Shown: positions 12,245 to 63,586 of the stretch, piece by piece
Layout of the letters: every line of letters starts with the position of its first letter
How positions within the stretch are numbered: position 1 is the first letter of the stretch
NCBI RefSeq assembly: GCF_036924745.1
Contig: NZ_JAZHSD010000001.1
Coordinates: forward strand, 5,084,001 to 5,148,000
DNA length: 64,000 nt
Source of the DNA: Bradyrhizobium sp. AZCC 1693
Lineage (GTDB): Bacteria > Pseudomonadota > Alphaproteobacteria > Rhizobiales > Xanthobacteraceae
Direction of reading: 5' to 3'
Translations under genes and position numbers: made by a program
Notes under the pieces: generated by a model
Database searches by the model: none
Told to the model about the DNA's origin: nothing
What the model saw: the letters and a program-made list of their open reading frames with translations, nothing else

Positions 12245-12367
12245 CGTCATTCCGGGGCGCGCGAAGCGCGAACCTCAGATGTGCAATTGCACATCGGGGA
12301 ATCTCGATGTTCTCAGGTGCGCAATTGCGCACCATAGTTCGATGCTTCGCATCGCCCCGGAACGACG
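12245..12367. repeat. Family A palindromic repeat
   Basis: Bounded by CGTCATTCCGGGGC and GCCCCGGAACGACG, with an internal GTGCGCAATTGCGCAC and a shorter TGTGCAATTGCACA. It lies between the convergent DUF2336 and trmB genes. A related copy is at 38588-38693. Confidence 0.8.
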
Positions 12368-20917: not shown

Positions 20918-21115
20918 TCATTCCGGGGGCCCAAAGCGCACCTCGGATGCGCAAGTGCGCATCCGGACCGCCGGCGCGCCACCGGCCGTCATGGCCGGGC
21001 TTGACCCGGCCATCCACGTCTACGCTTGAGCGGTAAGAAAGACGTGGATGCCCGGGACAAGCTCGGGCATGACGACTGGAGGATGCTGGCGCATCGCCCC
21101 CGGAATGACGGGTAG
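20918..21115. repeat. Family A repeat with a family B repeat nested inside
   Basis: Outer arms GTCATTCCGGGGGC (20918) and GCCCCCGGAATGACGG (ends 21115) belong to family A with its GATGCGCAAGTGCGCATC core. A complete family B unit (CGTCATGGCCGGGCTTGACC... to ...CTCGGGCATGACG, about 20991-21073) sits in the middle. It fills nearly all of the 289-base gap between miaB and the GT39 gene. Confidence 0.75.
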
Positions 21116-25635: not shown

Positions 25636-25648
25636 GATCTATCATTCT

Positions 25649-25737
25649 CGTCATGCCCGGGCTTGTCCCGGGCATCCACGTCTTTTGCTTTATCACAAGA
25701 CAAGACGTGGATGGCCGGGACAAGCCCGGCCATGACG
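25649..25737. repeat. Family B palindromic repeat
   Basis: Two arms, CGTCATGCCCGGGCTTGTCC...GGGCATCCACGTCTT and AAGACGTGGATGGCCGGG...CCCGGCCATGACG, each itself palindromic and inverted relative to the other, joined by about 15 bases. It lies between nfu and tsaB. Confidence 0.85.
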
Positions 25738-25778
25738 AAATCCTTGATTTGATACGTCGGATGCGGCCGATCGGTCTC

Positions 25779-29718: not shown

Positions 29719-29780
29719 TGGCGCTCTATAGCAGCCGCTTGCCTTGCTGGCAGCAATGTCCGCCCCGCGTCCTTGATCTT

Positions 29781-29870
29781 CGTCATGGCCGGGCTTGTCC
29801 CGGCCATCCACGTCTTTCCTGTTTCAGTGAAGCAAGGACGTGGATGCCCGGCACAGGGCCGGGCATGACG
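29781..29870. repeat. Family B palindromic repeat
   Basis: CGTCATGGCCGGGCTTGTCC...GACGTGGATGCCCGG...GGGCATGACG, in the divergent gap between murJ and the PfkB kinase, where promoters of both must lie. Confidence 0.85.
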
Positions 29871-29984
29871 AGTTCGCGGTATTGCTCCCCGCTTCCCTTG
29901 CTGGCGCGGGGCCGATCTGGTAGGCCGCAACCTTCTTGGCCGCGCTCGGCTTCTTCACACACCGCCGCAAAACAGGACGGATGA

Positions 29985-35802: not shown

Positions 35803-36703
35803 TTCGCCGCTACTCTTCACGTCGGGCCCAGCACTGATTTGCCCGACATCGCAAATCAAAAAACGATCTTCGGCAAAAATAATCCGCTTCGCGTTTCCCC
35901 CAAATCACCCTTACAACCTCCGGTATCCCGTCCCCCAAGAGGGGCGTTTCGCGATCGTCACTAAGCGCGGGGCCGGGTGCGGTGGACGCGGCAGCGTCGG
36001 GCGCGCAAACGTCGTCGCAGGGCGGGCTCCTTTGGGGCTTCGTGAGCGAAGGGACGGCACGCCGACGACCGATGCTAAGCCGCTCTTCGTCAAACTTCGG
36101 TGGGTGGGTACCAAGCCCGTCGAGGTTTTGGCGTTGGGCGTGCCGCGTACGGCCAAGTCGTGTGGTTCTGGCACCCGTGGCTGGTGTCAAGTCCGCGGAG
36201 GATGTGCCGGCCCGACCGGGCTGGCCCCATCCATCAATCCGCGGATGACGGTGGCTAAAGGAATTCGCACACCGGGAAGAGCACGAAGTACGCCGTAAAA
36301 CCATTGCGCAGGGAAGGCCGGATGCTCTCCGCTGGACCTGTATGCTCGTGTGCGCGTCTTTGTGCGCAATTGCACACGAGACCGCGGGTGCAGCGCGCAC
36401 CCGGTCTTCCCTGCGCCCTCTGTATTCAAGGAGGGGCGAACGAAGATGGAAAACCTCGGGCGGAACGCGCCGCGAGATCGCGAAGGTGTGTTTGATGAAC
36501 AATGACCGCGCCACACACTCCGTTGTCGTCACCCGCCTTGTGCGCAATTGCGCACTGGGGCGGGTGACCCAGTATTCCAGAGACAGCAGACAGAATCGGT
36601 AGGCCGCGGCGTACTGGGTCCCCCGCCTTCGCGGGGGACGACGAGTGTGGGTGGAGCGAGGGCGTGCCACGCGAGGAAGCGTGGTCGTCCTCATTCTTCT
36701 TTT
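35803..36703. repeat. Non-coding, repeat-like stretch downstream of res
   Basis: About 900 bases without a credible gene. It contains many partly open frames in several registers, none with family features, and several palindromes: GTGCGCAATTGCACAC (36361-36376), GTGCGCAATTGCGCAC (36541-36556) and GTCCCCCGCCTTCGCGGGGGACGAC (about 36627-36651). Its translated shadows (for example SGEHPAFPAQWFYG on the minus strand) are ones I remember from many Bradyrhizobium annotations, so I infer a multicopy genomic repeat. It marks the right edge of the R-M island, where G+C returns to normal. Confidence 0.5.
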
Positions 36704-38587: not shown

Positions 38588-38693
38588 CGTCATTCCGGGG
38601 CGATGCGAAAGCATCGAACCCGGAATCTCGAGATTCCCCGGTGCGCAATTGCGCACCTGAGGTCTGGTGCTAGCGCACCATCCCGGAATGACG
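38588..38693. repeat. Family A palindromic repeat
   Basis: CGTCATTCCGGGGCGATGCG to CATCCCGGAATGACG with a GGTGCGCAATTGCGCACC core. It lies between the hypothetical gene and the aldehyde dehydrogenase gene. Confidence 0.85.
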
Positions 38694-43214: not shown

Positions 43215-43265
43215 GGGGACTCCTTGATGTTTTGTGCGATTATAGCAGATTGCCCAGGGCTAGGT

Positions 43266-43354
43266 CGTCATGCCCGGCCTTGGGCCTGGCATCCACGTCC
43301 TTCATGCCGCAATCAGGCAAGACGTGGATGGCCGGGTCAAGCCCGGCCATGACG
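43266..43354. repeat. Family B palindromic repeat
   Basis: CGTCATGCCCGGCCTTGGGC...GACGTGGATGGCCGGG...GGCCATGACG. It fills half of the divergent pirin-GNAT gap. Confidence 0.85.
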
Positions 43355-46677: not shown

Positions 46678-46859
46678 CCTTCTCCCCTTGTGGGAGAAGG
46701 TGGCGGACGTAGTCCGCCGGATGAGGGGTTCTATCCGCGAATACCAATGCAAGAGGTTCGCCCGTGGAGAGAACCCCTCACCCGTCTCAATCGTGCTTCG
46801 CACGATTGATCCACCCCAAGAGCGAGCTTCGCTCGTCTCGCTCCCACAAGGGGAGAGGG
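46678..46859. repeat. Family C repeat, inverted pair without a gene
   Basis: Arm 1 (46678-46732) begins CCTTCTCCCCTTGTGGGAG and ends GATGAGGGGTTCT; arm 2 (46770-46859) begins AGAACCCCTCACCCG and ends CTCCCACAAGGGGAGAGGG. They are inverted with only about 37 bases between. The same repeat flanks the DUF559 gene at 60227-60714. The arms contain internal hairpins (AATCGTGCTTCGCACGATT). Confidence 0.8.
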
Positions 46860-56750: not shown

Positions 56751-58937
56751 TCAATACATCTGCAATGGCAGCACATCGCCGCCGGGCCCGATCATCACGC
56801 CCCAGGTATCGCCGGCGCCGATCTCGATCTGGTTGTTGCGCGCCGGCCCGCCCGCGATTTTCAGCGCGTACTGGTACTTGCCTGGCGGCAGATCGATCAT
56901 CGGAGGCCTTGGCGATTGCGGCCCGCCGGCGCCGGCCGCGATCTTGATCGTCTGCTTATTAATCGAGACCGTGGCGTCGCTCTTGCCGATATTGCCGAAC
57001 ATCAGTTTGGACTGGCCGGGCTTCGGCACCACGTCCGCTTTCGCGGCCGCGGCCGGATATTTCTGGGCGAGATTGATTGAGGTCTCGCCCTTGCTGCGGC
57101 TGAGTTTCAGTGTTGCCGGTCCGTCGGGCGAGGTAAACGCCAGCTGCACCTGGTCAGGTTTCACGATGGCGCCTTCCGCCGTCTCCTGCCAGCCGCGTTT
57201 GCCGAGTTCGCTGCGGTAGAAGACCAGCACTGAATTGAGCGTGGCGGGAACGCTGGCCTCGAGCTCCCGGCGGAACGGTGTGTCGCTGCCGGGCATCTTT
57301 CCGGTTCCGATCGAGCGCATGGTGCGTTTGCTCGGCACCGGCAACGGCGAATCGGCCTCGGCTTCGAGAACCTCGTCGGCGGCCTTGGCGCCTGGTTCAT
57401 CGGCGGCTTGAGCGCCCGATCCGTCAGCCTTGGCGGCCATTTTTTGGTTGGCCATGACCAGGCCGGTACCGTCGGCGCTGACCTTGACCTTGGGTCCCAT
57501 CTGCATGGCGGTGAGTGAGAACGCCTTGCCGGCTTTGGAAAAGTCCATCACGACCATGTTGGCCTGATTGATGACCGAAGGCCGCTCCTTCCAGCCCAGC
57601 GACTTCAGCGAGGCACGATAGAATGCGGCGATCGCCTTCACGCTGGAGGTCGAATCGAATCCAAGCCTGCCGTCGGCGCCGTCGAATTTTACGTTTTCCG
57701 CATTCTCCGGCAATGGCACCGGGGTTGCGCTATCGGCCAACGCGCGCAGCGGCGCATCCGAGAGATTGGCGGCCTGCGCGACCCGCCGCGCCTCGTCGTC
57801 GGCGATCACCTGCTTCGCCATCGCTGCCGCATCGCTCATGAACTTCTGGTCTGCCTCCTTCTTCGCCCTGGCGCGTGCGGCGAGCGCCGCCTCTGTCATC
57901 TGCGTGACGAGATTGACGACGGTCAGATCGTAATTGCGGCCGAGCGTCAGCGTCGCGGATTGCTCGGCGGAGGAGAATTTCAGCGTGACGTTATCAGGCG
58001 CGGCGACCGCGCCGTTCGTCTGCTCGGTCCAGTTGCGGCTTGCGAGTTCGTGGCGATAGAAAGCAAGCGTCGCGGGAAGCTCGGCGATGACGGCGACCTC
58101 GAGCTGGCGGCGGACAGAGTCGGAGCCGCCGGAACTCTTCGCGGTCTTGGTCGGCTTGGGCCGCGGCAGGCCGGCCATTTCGGAATCGGCCTCCAAGGTT
58201 TGCGGCAGCGCGAACGGCGCCACCCGGATTTCCACGCCGGTCCGGCCGTCGTCGCGGCGTTGCAGGGTCAGCATGATCGGGCGCTGCCGATAGAAGCCGT
58301 CGCCGTCGTCATGGCTGTAATAGGCGCGGACGCCGTTCTGGACCGTCTCGCTGAACTCCGCATTGGGCCACCGGGACATCGCATCGGCGGCGGAAAGCTG
58401 CTTCCAGCCGATCGCGGCCATTTCCTTGCGAAAGAAATCGATCGACGCGTCGAAGGCGAGAGGTGCGATGCAGCCGAGATAGGGCCGGTGCTGGTCGAAC
58501 ACGATATCGGTCGCATCGGGCGGGAACGGGACGTTGGAGGTGATCCGTTCGGCGGTGTAGTACACCACCGATTGATCCGGCCGACCGAGGCCCTGCGTGA
58601 AATGAACGTTCAGCCCCTGCTGGGCCTTCTTGAAGGTGAGCAGGCTGCTCTTCTCATCGAGCGGTCGCAGGAATTGCACCCAACCGTCGGCGGCGAGCAG
58701 TTTTTTGGTGGCGGCTGACGTCACCGCGACCACGGTCGGAACGCCGTAGCTCATGCTGTGGGATTGCGTGCGGGAAGTATCTTCGACCGCGCCTTCCGGC
58801 CGCGGCAGCGTGCGGACGTCGACGATGCCGCTGTCGGCCCTTGCCGCAAGGGGCGCACCAGCGATGATCAGAAAGATCAGCGGCAGCAGGCGTTTTCCGG
58901 CCGGGAGGGTCCCGCGCGCGATCTCAGGCATATTCAT
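56751..58937 (-). CDS. Exported modular protein of unknown function (728 residues)
   Basis: Residues 1-34 form a signal peptide (RLLPLIFLIIAGAPLAARAD), so the protein is periplasmic or secreted. Two ~68-residue modules are clearly homologous: residues 276-343 (RRQLEVAVIAELPATLAFYR...) and 555-623 (FRRELEASVPATLNSVLVFY...), sharing FYRxELxxRxWxE, GAxxxPDxVxLxF and ATLxL. More divergent FYR/FFR...GW units occur near 165-240 (IDFFRKEMAAIGWKQL) and 431-478 (IAAFYRASLKSLGWKE). A charged Ala/Lys/Glu helix (345-390) and a Pro/Ala linker (500-540) separate them. The C-terminal 60 residues (LPPGKYQYALKIAGGPAR) form a beta-rich domain. I do not recognise a named family or catalytic residues. It lies between the pseudogenised acyltransferase and recF, inside the replication block. 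Confidence 0.8.
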   Translation of the reverse strand: MNMPEIARGTLPAGKRLLPLIFLIIAGAPLAARADSGIVDVRTLPRPEGAVEDTSRTQSHSMSYGVPTVVAVTSAATKKLLAADGWVQFLRPLDEKSSLLTFKKAQQGLNVHFTQGLGRPDQSVVYYTAERITSNVPFPPDATDIVFDQHRPYLGCIAPLAFDASIDFFRKEMAAIGWKQLSAADAMSRWPNAEFSETVQNGVRAYYSHDDGDGFYRQRPIMLTLQRRDDGRTGVEIRVAPFALPQTLEADSEMAGLPRPKPTKTAKSSGGSDSVRRQLEVAVIAELPATLAFYRHELASRNWTEQTNGAVAAPDNVTLKFSSAEQSATLTLGRNYDLTVVNLVTQMTEAALAARARAKKEADQKFMSDAAAMAKQVIADDEARRVAQAANLSDAPLRALADSATPVPLPENAENVKFDGADGRLGFDSTSSVKAIAAFYRASLKSLGWKERPSVINQANMVVMDFSKAGKAFSLTAMQMGPKVKVSADGTGLVMANQKMAAKADGSGAQAADEPGAKAADEVLEAEADSPLPVPSKRTMRSIGTGKMPGSDTPFRRELEASVPATLNSVLVFYRSELGKRGWQETAEGAIVKPDQVQLAFTSPDGPATLKLSRSKGETSINLAQKYPAAAAKADVVPKPGQSKLMFGNIGKSDATVSINKQTIKIAAGAGGPQSPRPPMIDLPPGKYQYALKIAGGPARNNQIEIGAGDTWGVMIGPGGDVLPLQMY

Positions 58938-59063
58938 CTCCGGTATTTGTTGCGTATGAACGATGGCCGCGTGACCGCAAGGCCGCGACGTCGCTGACGC
59001 CGTTTCCGTAAGCTAGTCGCGCCGGCGCGGGATTAGGTTCAAAACCGGCCCTATCCGCCGGGC

Positions 59064-60203
59064 TCAGGCGCGACGGGTCACCTGGCCCGATTCGACGTCG
59101 AAAATCTCGCCGCTGGCACCGATATCGACGAATGCGGCCGGATCGGCGCCGGTCATCCAGACCTGCGCGCCGAGATTGGTCAACTCATCGAACAATGCCT
59201 TGCGCCTGACGGGATCGAGATGCGCGACGACTTCATCGAGCAGCAACAGCGGCACGATGCCGGTCATTTCGGCGACCAGCGTGGCATGGGCGAGCACCAG
59301 CCCGATCAGAAGCGCCTTTTGCTCGCCGGTGGAGGCGTCGCGCGCCGGTATGCTCTTCGGCGCGTAGACCACCTGCAGATCGGTGAGGTGGGGGCCATCG
59401 AGTGTCCGGCCGGCCGCGGCGTCGCGGGCGCGGCTTGCGCGCAGGATCTCGCGGTAGCGATCCTCCACTGATGTCGCGGACTCGTTGACCAGCGCATTTT
59501 CCATCCAGCCGTCGAGCATGATCTGTGCCGACGGAAACGCCGAAGCTTGCCCACGTTCGCGCAGCATCGCCGCCAGTCGCGTCACCGTCTGGCCGCGGGT
59601 GGCCGCGACCGCTACCGCAAGCTCGGCGGTTTCGCGTTCGATCGCGTCGCACCAATGGTCGTCATAGTTGCGGACTTCGAGCAAGCGGTTGCGCGAGCGC
59701 AACGAGCGGTCAAGCGCCGAAACGCGGCTGGAATGCTCGCTGTCGATCGCCAGCACCAGCCGGTCGAAGAAGCGCCGGCGCTCGGAAGCGGCGCCGAGAA
59801 ACAGCCCGTCCATGGCGGGTGTCAGCCACACCATGCGCAGATGATCGCCAAAGGCGGTTGCCGAACTCGCGGGCTCGCGGTCGATCCGGCAGCGCCGGCT
59901 GGTGGACGCCGCCTCCGCGGCGGGCGCATCGATACCGGTGCCGAGCGTGGCAAGCCCGAGCGCGCCCTCGACCTCGGCCGAGACCGCCCAGGAGCCGTCG
60001 CCCTGGTTGTCCGCAACATCCTCCAGCGTCGCGCGCCGCAGGCCGCGTCCCGGCGACAGAAACGAGATCGCCTCCAGGCAATTGGTCTTGCCGGCGCCGT
60101 TCGGCCCCACCAGCACCACGACATCGCCGCGCGTCTGCACGGTTCCCGCGCGGTAGTTGCGGAAGTGCGTGAGGTTGAGGCGTCGGATGCGGGAGGGGGT
60201 CAT
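59064..60203 (-). CDS. recF: DNA replication/repair protein RecF
   Basis: RecF is an SMC-like ATPase loading RecA at gaps in duplex DNA. The 379-residue product has Walker A GPNGAGKT (33-40), preceded by RIRRLNLTHFRNYRAG, the signature-motif region STGEQKALLIGLVLAHATLV and Walker B PLLLLDEVVAHLD. Length is typical. It lies 3' of dnaN as in most bacteria, but a repeat-flanked DUF559 gene sits between them. Confidence 0.96.
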   Translation of the reverse strand: MTPSRIRRLNLTHFRNYRAGTVQTRGDVVVLVGPNGAGKTNCLEAISFLSPGRGLRRATLEDVADNQGDGSWAVSAEVEGALGLATLGTGIDAPAAEAASTSRRCRIDREPASSATAFGDHLRMVWLTPAMDGLFLGAASERRRFFDRLVLAIDSEHSSRVSALDRSLRSRNRLLEVRNYDDHWCDAIERETAELAVAVAATRGQTVTRLAAMLRERGQASAFPSAQIMLDGWMENALVNESATSVEDRYREILRASRARDAAAGRTLDGPHLTDLQVVYAPKSIPARDASTGEQKALLIGLVLAHATLVAEMTGIVPLLLLDEVVAHLDPVRRKALFDELTNLGAQVWMTGADPAAFVDIGASGEIFDVESGQVTRRA

Positions 60204-60226
60204 TAGGGCAGCGTCGGTCTTTTCTT

Positions 60227-60286
60227 CCCCTCTCCCCTTGTGGGAGAGGGTGGCGCCGAACGAAGTTCGGCGACGGGTGAGGGGTT
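60227..60286. repeat. Family C palindromic repeat, left arm of the DUF559 cassette
   Basis: CCCCTCTCCCCTTGTGGGAG through GCGCCGAACGAAGTTCGGCG to GACGGGTGAGGGGTT. It contains two internal hairpins. It is the exact 60-base reverse complement of 60655-60714. Confidence 0.9.
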
Positions 60287-60287
60287 G

Positions 60288-60746
60288 TCACAGCTCGGCG
60301 AGCTTTACGAAAATGTCCTCCAAAACGGCAGAGGGCTGTTGCAGTACGTCATTGTTCCAGTAGCGCGCGATTCGAAATCCTTCGGCGATCAGTACCGCCT
60401 CCCTCGCATCGTCACGCGTCGATGATGCGTGCTGACTTCCGTCGATTTCAATGATCAACCGCTTCTCGAAACACACAAAGTCGAGAATGAAGTTTTGGAA
60501 CGGAACCTGGCGACGAAATTTGAACCGCCCCAGTCGTCGATCTCGAAGCAATCGCCACATCGCCAGTTCCGCATCGGTGGGCTCGTGGCGCATCTTCTTT
60601 GCGAAGTTGCGGATACGCTTGGCGGTCGGGCGATGGCTTGGTGCTTGCGGCCCGAACCCCTCACCCGTCGCCGAACTTCGTTCGGCGCCACCCTCTCCCA
60701 CAAGGGGAGAGGGGGAATCAGAGTCCTTGTCGCCGGAAGTGCTCAC
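60288..60746 (-). CDS. DUF559 (PD-(D/E)xK-like endonuclease domain) protein bracketed by repeats
   Basis: A 152-residue product with the DUF559 layout: FAKKMRHEPTDAELAMWRLL, RRLGRFKFRRQVPFQNFILD, FVCFEKRLIIEIDGSQHASS, then GFRIARYWNNDVLQ. The Glu of TDAE and the D...E-x-D of ILDFVCFEKRLIIEIDG match the active-site pattern of the Vsr/restriction-endonuclease-like fold. The family is widespread and uncharacterised as far as I know. The GTG start at 60746 overlaps the dnaN stop (GTGA); the first ~35 residues are read through the right-hand repeat (SPLVGEGGAERSSATGEGF), so the functional start may be ATG 60593 (MRHEPTD). The stop codon is one base from the left-hand repeat. Gene and repeats form one compact unit between dnaN and recF. 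Confidence 0.85.
   Translation of the reverse strand: MSTSGDKDSDSPSPLVGEGGAERSSATGEGFGPQAPSHRPTAKRIRNFAKKMRHEPTDAELAMWRLLRDRRLGRFKFRRQVPFQNFILDFVCFEKRLIIEIDGSQHASSTRDDAREAVLIAEGFRIARYWNNDVLQQPSAVLEDIFVKLAEL
60655..60714. repeat. Family C palindromic repeat, right arm of the DUF559 cassette
   Basis: AACCCCTCACCCGTCGCCGA to GGGGAGAGGGG, the perfect 60-base inverse of 60227-60286. It lies inside the 5' part of the DUF559 reading frame. Confidence 0.9.
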
Positions 60747-61861
60747 ACCCGCATCGGCATCAGCACATACAGCGCGCCCTTGTTGTCCTTGTCCTGCACC
60801 AGCGTCGGGGAGCCGGGATCGGCGAGGCGCAGCACGGCGACTTCGCCTTCGATCTGGGCGGCGATGTCGAGCAGATAGCGCGAGTTGAAGCCGATATCGA
60901 GGGCGTCGGAGGCGTATTCGACCTCCAGTTCTTCGGTGGCGCTGCCGGAATCCGGATTGGTCACCGACAGCACCAGCTTGCCCGGAGACAATGCGAGTTT
61001 CACGGCACGGCCGCGCTCGCTGGAAATGGTCGAGACGCGGTCTACCGCTGCCTCAAAGTCCTTCTTGTCGACGATCAGTTCCTTGTCATTGTTCTGCGGA
61101 ATGACGCGGCCGTAGTCCGGGAAGGTTCCGTCGATCAGCTTCGAGGTGAGCACGACGTTGTCGAGCGTGAAGCGGATCTTGCCCTGCGAGAGCTCGATTT
61201 TGACTTCGGCCTCATTGTCCTCGATCAGCCGCTGCACCTCGCCGACCGTCTTGCGCGGCACGATCACGCCGGGCATGCCGGTGGCGCCGGAGGGCAGCGC
61301 CAGATCGATCTGCGCCAGCCGGTGGCCATCGGTCGCGACCCCGCGCAGCGTCGCGGCCTTGGCGCTGCCGGCCGTGTGCAGATAGATGCCGTTGAGATAA
61401 TACCGCGTCTCCTCAGTCGAGATCGCAAACTGCGTGCGATCGATCAGGCGCTTGACGTCGGCAGCCGCGAGCGAAAACGAATGCGTCATGTCGCCGGCGG
61501 CGAGGTCCGGGAAGTCGCTTTCGGGCAGGGTCTGCAGCGTGAAGCGCGAGCGGCCGGCGCGGATCGCCAGCACCGAACGGTCGCCGTCGGCTTCCAGCAC
61601 GATCTGCGCGCCGTCGGGCAGTTTGCGGACGATGTCGTAGAACATATGCGCCGGCACGGTGGTGGAGCCGCCGGTCGCGGTTTCCGCCGCCAGCGTTTCG
61701 GTCACCTCCAGGTCGAGGTCGGTCGCCTTCAGCGACAGCCTGGCGTTTTCGGCGCGGACCAGCACGTTGCCGAGGATCGGGATGGTGTTGCGGCGCTCGA
61801 CCACGCGATGGACGTGACCCAGCGACTTCAGCAGTTGCGCGCGTTCGACGGTGACCTTCAT
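60743..61861 (-). CDS. dnaN: DNA polymerase III sliding clamp (beta subunit)
   Basis: The 372-residue clamp encircles DNA and tethers DNA polymerase III. MKVTVERAQLLKSLGHVHRV begins domain I; TIPILGNVLVRAENARLSLK, PESDFPDLAAGDMTHSFSLA and DRTQFAISTEETRYYLNGIY follow, and the conserved C-terminus ends ALYVLMPMRV. The hydrophobic cleft residues recognised by clamp-binding peptides are in the last domain. It is complete. The stop overlaps the DUF559 start by 4 bases; dnaA lies about 295 bases upstream. Confidence 0.97.
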   Translation of the reverse strand: MKVTVERAQLLKSLGHVHRVVERRNTIPILGNVLVRAENARLSLKATDLDLEVTETLAAETATGGSTTVPAHMFYDIVRKLPDGAQIVLEADGDRSVLAIRAGRSRFTLQTLPESDFPDLAAGDMTHSFSLAAADVKRLIDRTQFAISTEETRYYLNGIYLHTAGSAKAATLRGVATDGHRLAQIDLALPSGATGMPGVIVPRKTVGEVQRLIEDNEAEVKIELSQGKIRFTLDNVVLTSKLIDGTFPDYGRVIPQNNDKELIVDKKDFEAAVDRVSTISSERGRAVKLALSPGKLVLSVTNPDSGSATEELEVEYASDALDIGFNSRYLLDIAAQIEGEVAVLRLADPGSPTLVQDKDNKGALYVLMPMRV

Positions 61862-62155
61862 TGCATTACCCGCCAGAGATGGAAAAGCCGGGCGGCCCGT
61901 AAAGGCAGCGCCGCGGCATTGGAAACCCGAAAAGCCGGATCAGGATCGGAGTTGATCAAACCCCCGGGGGGACCGCAAGGTGGCGCGGATAGGGCGCCGG
62001 TGCAAGGGAGACGGCACCCCGTTCCCCACCTTTGCGGCAGAAAATGGCGGCAGAAAAAAATTCTCCCGCCCCAATTCTCCCACGTCTGGGGATCAGGGAG
62101 GGAGAGGCTGGGGAGGAGCCGGACCCTTAAGGGGCAGGTCCTGTTCCTGCTGCCA
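61862..62155. other. dnaA-dnaN intergenic region
   Basis: 294 bases with no gene seen. It has runs of purines and pyrimidines (GGAGAATTTTTTTCTGCCGCC on the minus strand) and a duplicated CTGCCGCC/TTCTGCCGC motif. I found no TTATCCACA-type DnaA box. It presumably carries the dnaN promoter. Confidence 0.4.
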
Positions 62156-63586
62156 CTATTCCTGCAATTGCCGCTTCAGCGACTCGACCTCTTCGGACAG
62201 CGCGATATCCCGCGCCACCAGTGCCTCGATCTTGCGCACGGCATGCAGCACCGTGGTGTGGTCGCGCCCGCCGAACCGGCGGCCGATCTCGGGCAGCGAA
62301 CGCAGCGTCAGCGTCTTCGCTAGATACATCGCGACCTGGCGCGGACGAACGACGTTGGCGGTCCGCCGCGACGACAGCAGGTCCGAACGGCTGACATTGT
62401 ACTGCCGGGCGACCACCCGCTGGATGTCCTCGATCTTGATCCGCTTCGGTTCCTGCGGACGGATCAGGTCGCGCACCTCGCGCTCGGCCATTTCCAGCGT
62501 CACCGGCTGGTTGTTGAGCTTGGAATGGGCGAGCAGGCGGTTGATGGCGCCTTCGAGGTCGCGGCCGTTATGGGTGATGGTGCGCGCCAGATAATCCAGC
62601 ACCGCTTCCGGCACGTCGAAGCTTGCATGATGCGCACGCGCAGCCGCCACGCGCGACTTCAGGATTCCGAGCCGCAGCTCTTCGCCGAGCGAACCCATCT
62701 CCACGACGAGACCGCCGGCCAGCCGCGAGCGCACGCGATCGTCGAGGCTTTCGAGATCGGACGGCGGCCGGTCGGCGGCGATCACCACCTGGCGGCCGGC
62801 ATCGATCAGCGCGTTCAGCGTGTGGCAAAACTCGGCCTGGGTCGATTTGCCCTGCAGGAACTGCAGATCGTCGATCACGAGCACGTCGATGCCGCGTAGC
62901 GCCTCCTTGAACGCCAGCGCCGTCTGCGTCTTCAGCGCGGCGACGAAGCCGTACATGAATTTCTCGGCGGTGAGATAGAGCACCTTGCGTTCGCTGCCGG
63001 AATTGCCGGCCCACGTCACCGCCTGCAGCAGATGGGTTTTGCCGAGGCCGACGCCGGCGTGAATGTAGAGCGGGTTGAACATCACGGGATCGCCGCGGCG
63101 TCCTTCGGCGACCTGGCGCGCGGCGGCATGGGCCAGCGTATTAGAGCGGCCGATCACGAAGCTTGCAAAGGTCAGGCGCGGGTCGAGCGGCGAGCCGCCG
63201 AGCGCATCATGGCTGGCGGATACCGGCGCCGTCGCAGTCGCGCGCAGTTCCGGCGCGGGGCGGGCATTGGCCTGCTCGATGCGGCGTTGATCGGCTGGAG
63301 CTGCGGCTTCCTTGGCGGGCGCGGCGCAGCGCATCGCCGTGCGCACGGTGAGGTCGATCCGGTGCACTTCGGGCATCTCGGCCTGCCAGCAGGTCAGGAC
63401 GCGGTCGGCGTAATGCGCCTGGATCCAGCTCTTGAGGAACCGGGTCGGAACCGACAGATGCACGCTCTCGTCCTGCACGCCTTCCAAATCCATGCGCGCA
63501 AACCAGCTCGTATAGACGTCCTCGCCCACGGTCGTCCGCAACCGTCCCTTCACGCGCGACCAGCGATCCTGTTCCGTATTTGTCAT
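62156..63586 (-). CDS. dnaA: Chromosomal replication initiator DnaA
   Basis: DnaA opens the origin. The 476-residue product has domain I ([31 protein letters not shown]), an Ala-rich linker domain II ([20 protein letters not shown]), the AAA+ domain III with Walker [13 protein letters not shown] and Walker [20 protein letters not shown], and the DNA-binding domain IV with [20 protein letters not shown] and [19 protein letters not shown], the family signature. Start ATG 63586 (MTNTEQDRW) is the family start; the frame remains open upstream to 63700 without similarity. Confidence 0.97.

Follow-up and report, generated by a model that had tools for sequence, protein, structure and literature searches.

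The genome of Bradyrhizobium sp. AZCC 1693 carries a small DUF559 gene between dnaN and recF, enclosed by two perfect inverted copies of a palindromic repeat. This arrangement raises the question whether enzyme and palindromes belong together and whether the one may be responsible for the spread or the maintenance of the other. The window analysed here is a stretch of 64,000 nucleotides of this genome, which consists of one contig of 7.6 Mb. The features of the locus are:

59064..60203, minus strand: recF, downstream flank, named from its own protein sequence and from a 146-genome search
60227..60286, plus strand: left arm, 3' side of the gene, type B, from the inverted-repeat list
60288..60746, minus strand: DUF559 nuclease gene (predicted Vsr-like, restriction-fold), 152 amino acids, GTG start
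60300..60617, minus strand: DUF559 domain, residues 44-149, from Pfam and alignment
60655..60714, minus strand: right arm, 5' side of the gene, type B, from the inverted-repeat list
60743..61861, minus strand: dnaN, upstream flank, named from its own protein sequence; relatives align at the junction

The initial annotation had described two perfect 60-bp inverted repeats packed tightly around a DUF559 gene between dnaN and recF, and this description was borne out. Both copies were recovered in the inverted-repeat list with their coordinates, as exact reverse complements over 60 nt and first among the window's inverted repeats, and both flanking genes could be named from their proteins. The coordinates also place the stop codon one base beyond the left arm and the right arm within the first codons of the reading frame, where it is translated as SPSPLVGEGGAERSSATGEGF. 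Start codon of DUF559 and stop codon of dnaN share bases in the GTGA at 60743-60746, which suggests translational coupling. The initial annotation had also pointed to other DUF559 proteins with N-termini that look like translated repeat, and the translated arm was present in all 120 relatives listed out of 4199, a biased sample because the query included the arm. Rfam gave nothing at gathering score over 58000-63000.

The protein matched Pfam DUF559 (PF04480) with E=2.5e-35 and 121.1 bits, the cut-off being 20.6; otherwise one REase model only was returned, below threshold. A weak match to Vsr (E=0.0077) lay under the Vsr cut-off. Residues E60, D89, D102 and H106 were invariant and E100 nearly so in a 41-sequence alignment, in agreement with the conserved acidic nuclease residues noticed earlier, and the five positions may form the catalytic set of a restriction fold. 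Against the DUF559 profile, 3hrl, an endonuclease-like protein, reached 4.7e-38, and 3r3p, which is described as a 'Mobile intron protein', reached E=0.0013. We take 3r3p to be the EDxHD homing endonuclease I-Bth0305I. As judged from these profiles, DUF559 is a predicted small restriction-fold nuclease, kin of Vsr and of a mobile-intron endonuclease.

The left arm consists, in this order, of a pyrimidine-purine hairpin, CCCTCTCCC-CTTGT-GGGAGAGGG at 60228-60250 (inverse copy at 60691-60713), a second hairpin and a third-strand-like tail, GGGTGAGGGG, toward the gene. As DNA, 60225-60290 folded at -20.7 kcal/mol (z -4.75). A comparable repeat, BoxC, was discovered in E. coli in the 1990s. The triplex motif (TM) of Holder et al. 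is this older BoxC/PIT element, in which a purine third strand comes after a pyrimidine-purine hairpin, in the design CCCTCNCCC-loop-GGGNGAGGG-linker-GGGNGAGGG (PMC4666352). According to the same source, the E. coli motif forms a triplex in solution, and TM is found in more than 260 bacteria, is linked to genome instability and has an origin called unclear; in its main text no enzyme is linked to TM and the terms endonuclease, vsr and DUF do not appear (PMC4666352). The window arms contain the pyrimidine-purine hairpin of TM (CCCTCNCCC/GGGNGAGGG). In TM proper, 3 nt separate the hairpin from the purine third strand GGGNGAGGG; in the window, the tail GGGTGAGGGG follows its hairpin after 24 nt, a linker that folds as the second hairpin, and short linkers between hairpin and tail were present at other DUF559 loci. 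By this likeness the arms match the intrastrand-triplex kind (TM, BoxC/PIT), to which they would belong.

Inverted arms around DUF559 genes

The test set beforehand was whether DUF559 genes are enriched beside inverted palindromes, and the enrichment was strong in the genus, in the class and across phyla. For each DUF559 match the flanks on its two sides were compared, and the best inverted repeat between them gave the score, 36 or more being called strong; the arm pair of the window scored 120. Within the genus, 73 of 88 DUF559 loci had strong inverted arms compared with 0/1495 random positions taken within 60 fetched loci, counts that are not independent because many loci are orthologous. 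The sample comprised 90 loci, the 30 best and 60 hand-chosen among the matches listed with some near contig ends skipped, from which two with short flanks were dropped. In Alphaproteobacteria, where 30 loci from 30 genomes were taken and 29 scored, strong arms occurred at 20 loci and at 0/192 random positions. When flanks were swapped between class loci, upstream of one against downstream of another, 100 of 812 pairs also reached at least 36; the arms are of one common design, so that an inverted match alone is no proof of a locus-specific pair. Across several phyla (Pseudomonadota, Chloroflexota, Desulfobacterota, Planctomycetota and others) strong arms were found at 63/76 loci against 5/3732 controls, the sample being the best 80 loci of a species-genome pattern search less three short loci and one N-run artefact.

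These arms carried the triplex design well beyond the genus. TM-like hairpins were detected on both sides at 56 of the 76 multi-phylum loci and in 3/3166 controls. At 103 DUF559 loci, the third strand faced the gene in 132 of 206 flanks and outward in 45, and the triplex motif occurred in 18/2601 control flanks. DUF559 loci in records of the plasmid collection reached 98 (Deinococcus), 33 (Neisseria), 29 (Picosynechococcus) and 28 (Azospirillum), and the locus of Neisseria gonorrhoeae (L380) had a TM-like copy on each side, seemingly partly direct. Arms around DUF559 are not universal. The second of the two DUF559 matches of the host genome forms the C-terminus of a fusion with a TrmJ-like RNA methyltransferase (L002:601-1830) and had no TM motif within 1.5 kb.

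The idea that arm and enzyme co-evolve over long distances was not supported: among 58 distant representatives, arm similarity and protein similarity did not correlate (Mantel r=0.03, p=0.34). Under the domain bounds used there, just 122 of 197 loci reached 36, probably because a domain call may extend into the 3' arm; the main bracketing counts rest on Pfam or tblastn bounds.

In E. coli K-12, the gene ycjD, annotated as DUF559, lies at 1,351,407-1,351,760. The sole TM tabulated between 0.62 and 3.05 Mb is no. 9 at 1,351,204-1,351,239 (PMC4666352), 167 bp from ycjD, and the chance of a TM within 200 bp of this gene is about 0.003. Another TM hairpin, a degenerate one, overlaps the gene's end. 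That the pairing recurs in distant bacteria suggests DUF559 as the missing partner of the E. coli BoxC repeat. The 901-bp ycjD region was covered to at least 80% in 3333 of 5426 E. coli genomes; eight strains with a best match limited to the fabI side had a TetR gene and an efflux gene after fabI, not ycjD. The E. coli of our 14-genome control set gave no PF04480 match. In MG1655 the TM pair between lldD and trmL was full, three other strains had it in altered form and one lacked it; by eye no target-site duplication was seen in the five sequences. Strain C43(DE3) has a foreign palindrome inside this pair (L314 vs L384-L387).

Dispersed copies and the history of the cassette

The presence of DUF559 predicts the abundance of TM. 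Among 337 alphaproteobacterial genomes, 82 matched DUF559 strongly (E<=1e-20), 29 weakly and 226 not at all. At least five TM hairpins were counted in 56/82 genomes with strong DUF559 compared with 19/255 of the others (odds ratio 26.8, p=1.9e-27). The difference was seen within families, too: in the 31 that hold both kinds of genome, the genomes with DUF559 had the higher TM count in 25, the lower one in 4 and an equal one in 2 (p=2.6e-5). For genomes of 3-6.6 Mb the median was 20.5 TM hairpins with DUF559 (64 genomes) and 0 without (100). Twelve of the 82 strong-DUF559 genomes had no TM hairpin at all, and at least ten were counted in 11 of the 255 others, G179 and G444 among them; these 11 may have lost the enzyme or may owe their hairpins to another agent.

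A corresponding observation was made within the genus, where we called a relative type-1 at 67% identity or more, fragments included, among the matches listed. The type-1 repeat core was about twofold more abundant where a type-1 gene was present, with medians of 30.5 copies with the gene (64 genomes) and 15.5 without (82), gene fragments being counted as genes and the values being uncorrected for relatedness. Six genomes had no core copy, one of them (G030) with a type-1 gene.

The 60-mer of the arm had 75 matches in the host genome. The 30 loci around the best of them resolved into 23 distinct elements after the cassette and duplicate views had been dropped, and 22 of these gene-less elements were inverted pairs, their hairpins 106-133 nt apart from start to start. 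Typed by tail or hairpin, 20 of the 23 were A/B, three A/A and none B/B (binomial p=1.8e-4). A gene-less element is also present in the window:

46678..46857, no strand assigned: gene-less element, two imperfect hairpins about 157 nt apart, tails CGGATGAGGGG (A) and CCCCTCACCCG (B), with 60-mer matches

The window cassette, on the other hand, is B/B with its tails 383 nt apart, and 10 of 13 type-1 loci were B/B at a tail-to-tail distance of 383-384 nt; the remaining three comprised one A/B at 442 nt, one single tail and one different arrangement. Since gene-bearing cassettes are mostly B/B and gene-less elements mostly A/B, the latter did not arise simply by deletion from the cassette.

At its present place the cassette looks mainly inherited. 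Of the 143 genomes in which recF was matched (146 searched), at least 59 had a type-1 gene beside it. The gene is not universal at dnaN-recF; its presence there in all relatives, without repeats, would have spoken against the initial annotation. The 67 type-1 places listed in the genus comprised 60 beside recF (59 genomes), six elsewhere and one in a genome without a recF match. Some of the six perhaps represent contig breaks; four of them were fetched and three scored. Second copies elsewhere kept type-B arms in G097 (score 86) and G145 (34, under threshold), and the copy in G064 had no arms. Because two of these off-recF copies retain type-B arms, the cassette would have moved together with its arms, at least rarely. 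On one contig of a relative (G011:C16, near 434186 and 1025678) recF with its DUF559 neighbour occurred twice in opposite orientation, either a duplication or an assembly error.

We also inspected 13 dnaN-recF junctions without a listed type-1 gene. Seven had a GIY-YIG gene, intact or degraded, flanked by CGTC-REPs. Four others had CGTC repeats without a gene, or what is left of such repeats; of the last two, one had the remnant of a type-1 arm and the other a DUF559-like cassette of 621 nt outside the matches listed. The junction is therefore a repeat hot spot which holds other cassettes in relatives. By eye, neither a clean empty site nor a target duplication was seen in these 13 junctions. 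Two parts of the earlier reading were not borne out: no clean empty site was seen, and the cassette at dnaN-recF appears mainly vertically inherited.

Proposed mechanism and its alternatives

We consider it fairly probable that DUF559 and TM form a nuclease-palindrome partnership like that of RAYT and REPIN, in which the enzyme is unrelated and of the homing type. Gene and arms would together make up one cassette. The protein would most likely recognise extruded or single-stranded TM arms and nick or cut there, and repair or replication would then copy inverted TM pairs into intergenic sites. The dispersed gene-less pairs would be the non-autonomous elements of this system, and the gene-bearing cassette, inherited mostly vertically, would be the source of the enzyme. 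In such a scheme the palindromes would be spread or maintained by DUF559. Homing endonucleases mobilise their own reading frames and comprise six families, EDxHD and GIY-YIG among them (PMC3943268). A homing-like copying of palindromes is proposed because the DUF559 profile matches a mobile intron protein and because EDxHD and GIY-YIG are homing families.

The main rival, which we hold to be rather unlikely, is that DUF559 acts in the host as a maintenance nuclease trimming or resolving TM triplexes or cruciforms, the arms being spread by another agent. Arms at the gene itself would then be autoregulatory or merely tolerated. The Caulobacter DUF559 protein VsrA was reported to be induced by damage, with a proposed role in mismatch repair (PMC12907096), and such a role would also agree with arms that overlap or touch both gene ends, with the seemingly vertical inheritance of the cassette and with the rarity of relatives of the window protein on plasmids and phages (33/72,556 and 1/50,697 records, respectively; tblastn, E<=1e-5). 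A resolver, however, needs no inverted brackets at a spacing as constant as that of the 10 B/B type-1 loci, and the 11 genomes rich in TM hairpins but without strong DUF559 argue against it as well.

A further explanation would have another transposase (RAYT, TIRYT or other) move the TM pairs, with DUF559 as a captured passenger. The TM-rich genomes without DUF559 would fit this, and some RAYT-like genes elsewhere have terminal inverted repeats with a GGGGWSAS motif (PMC3733652), which resembles the TM tail. We nevertheless find it improbable. Thirty Y1 transposase loci (RAYT-type) were taken from 60 genomes of the genus and 28 were scored: 18 were bracketed, on our own reading 14 by GTAG-type and 4 by another palindrome, and none of the 30 had a TM hairpin, upon which RAYT was rejected as the TM agent for this genus. 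GIY-YIG loci had a TM hairpin in 0/50 cases in the genus and 1/30 in the class (L364). Nor would one expect of a passenger that the same family recurs across phyla. The analogy to REP elements and RAYTs, with an unrelated enzyme, had been drawn in the initial annotation and stands: Y1 loci have palindromes of their own, mostly GTAG, and DUF559 has TM. At the Y1 loci L239, L240, L242 and L246, one of them in the host genome, the palindrome contains about TTACGGTGACAGTGCAC and is not GTAG-type.

The GIY-YIG genes, too, were often bracketed:

L267:348-635: GIY-YIG gene with inverted CGTC-REPs
L269:348-635: GIY-YIG gene with inverted CGTC-REPs
L272:1167-1454: GIY-YIG gene with inverted CGTC-REPs
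L279:348-635: GIY-YIG gene with inverted CGTC-REPs
L300-L313 and L330-L379: further GIY-YIG genes with inverted CGTC-REPs

Among the best 30 loci of the genus, 10 were bracketed, and many of the unbracketed ones seem to be one conserved gene; among 20 hand-picked further down the list, 18 were. In the class, 18/30 loci were bracketed against 0/94 controls. Such cassettes lie at dnaN-recF of relatives and also elsewhere. The window itself holds inverted pairs of CGTC-type REPs at 20987-21075, 25648-25738, 29780-29871 and 43264-43354, and a further palindrome family with a core of about GTGCGCAATTGCGCAC at 12298-12340, 36362-36391 and 38622-38664.

The class of arm thus tracks the family of nuclease: TM with DUF559, GTAG with Y1 and CGTC with GIY-YIG. 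An incidental association, in which repeats and small dispensable genes merely share tolerant intergenic sites, might be imagined from the dnaN-recF hot spot with its seven GIY-YIG cassettes and four gene-less CGTC repeats in 13 junctions, but it is already disfavoured and in our eyes very improbable, given this correspondence, the lack of arms at random positions in the same loci and the strong co-occurrence over whole genomes.

The partnership of DUF559 with TM may be part of a wider pattern. As a tentative generalisation, possible but not one we would lean on, at least three unrelated nuclease families could own and copy palindromes in a homing-like manner, namely RAYT with GTAG-REPs, DUF559 with BoxC and GIY-YIG with CGTC-REPs, their cassettes competing for intergenic sites such as dnaN-recF. 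If this were true, DUF559 would be the enzyme behind BoxC/TM and GIY-YIG the one behind the orphan CGTC-REPs. A candidate enzyme that lies between repeat copies, and beside one of them in K-12 (ycjD), makes the origin and spread of TM testable in a strain that is at home in the laboratory. GIY-YIG is likewise a candidate for the CGTC-REPs, which were reported to show no association with transposase genes (PMC3733652). Taken together, the DUF559 and GIY-YIG cases suggest several origins of palindrome copying by small nucleases. In the titles, beginnings of abstracts and passages that our literature search covered, with subscription papers and most preprints outside its scope, no link of DUF559 to TM or of GIY-YIG to CGTC-REPs was found.

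Relation to known systems

To TM/BoxC/PIT, the window arms are alike in design, with the pyrimidine-purine hairpin and a third-strand-like tail; their linker is a second hairpin of 24 nt and that of TM measures 3 nt. In E. coli, every inverted TM pair (5/5) combines a type-A with a type-B copy, the types being defined by the loop (PMC4666352); here, A+B pairs made up 20/23 elements with A/B types of our own definition.

The EDxHD homing endonucleases (I-Bth0305I) and Vsr resemble DUF559 through the profile match to 3r3p and, weakly, to Vsr. The DUF559 gene of the window instead has palindromes on both sides, and no intron, intein or second DNA-binding region was seen in it.

RAYT/REPIN systems share with DUF559/TM a small nuclease gene within an inverted pair of palindromes and gene-less inverted pairs dispersed over the genome. 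Their inheritance is mostly vertical, and the DUF559 cassette seems, similarly, mostly chromosomal and vertically inherited. Differences concern the enzyme, which is DUF559 (Vsr-like) and gave no match to a Y1/HUH tyrosine transposase in Pfam, and the arms, which in the window are of the triplex motif without a GTAG tag. The GIY-YIG/CGTC-REP cassettes, finally, also consist of a nuclease gene in an inverted pair of palindromes, and they occupy the same dnaN-recF junction, but their nuclease is unrelated to DUF559 and their palindrome differs from TM.
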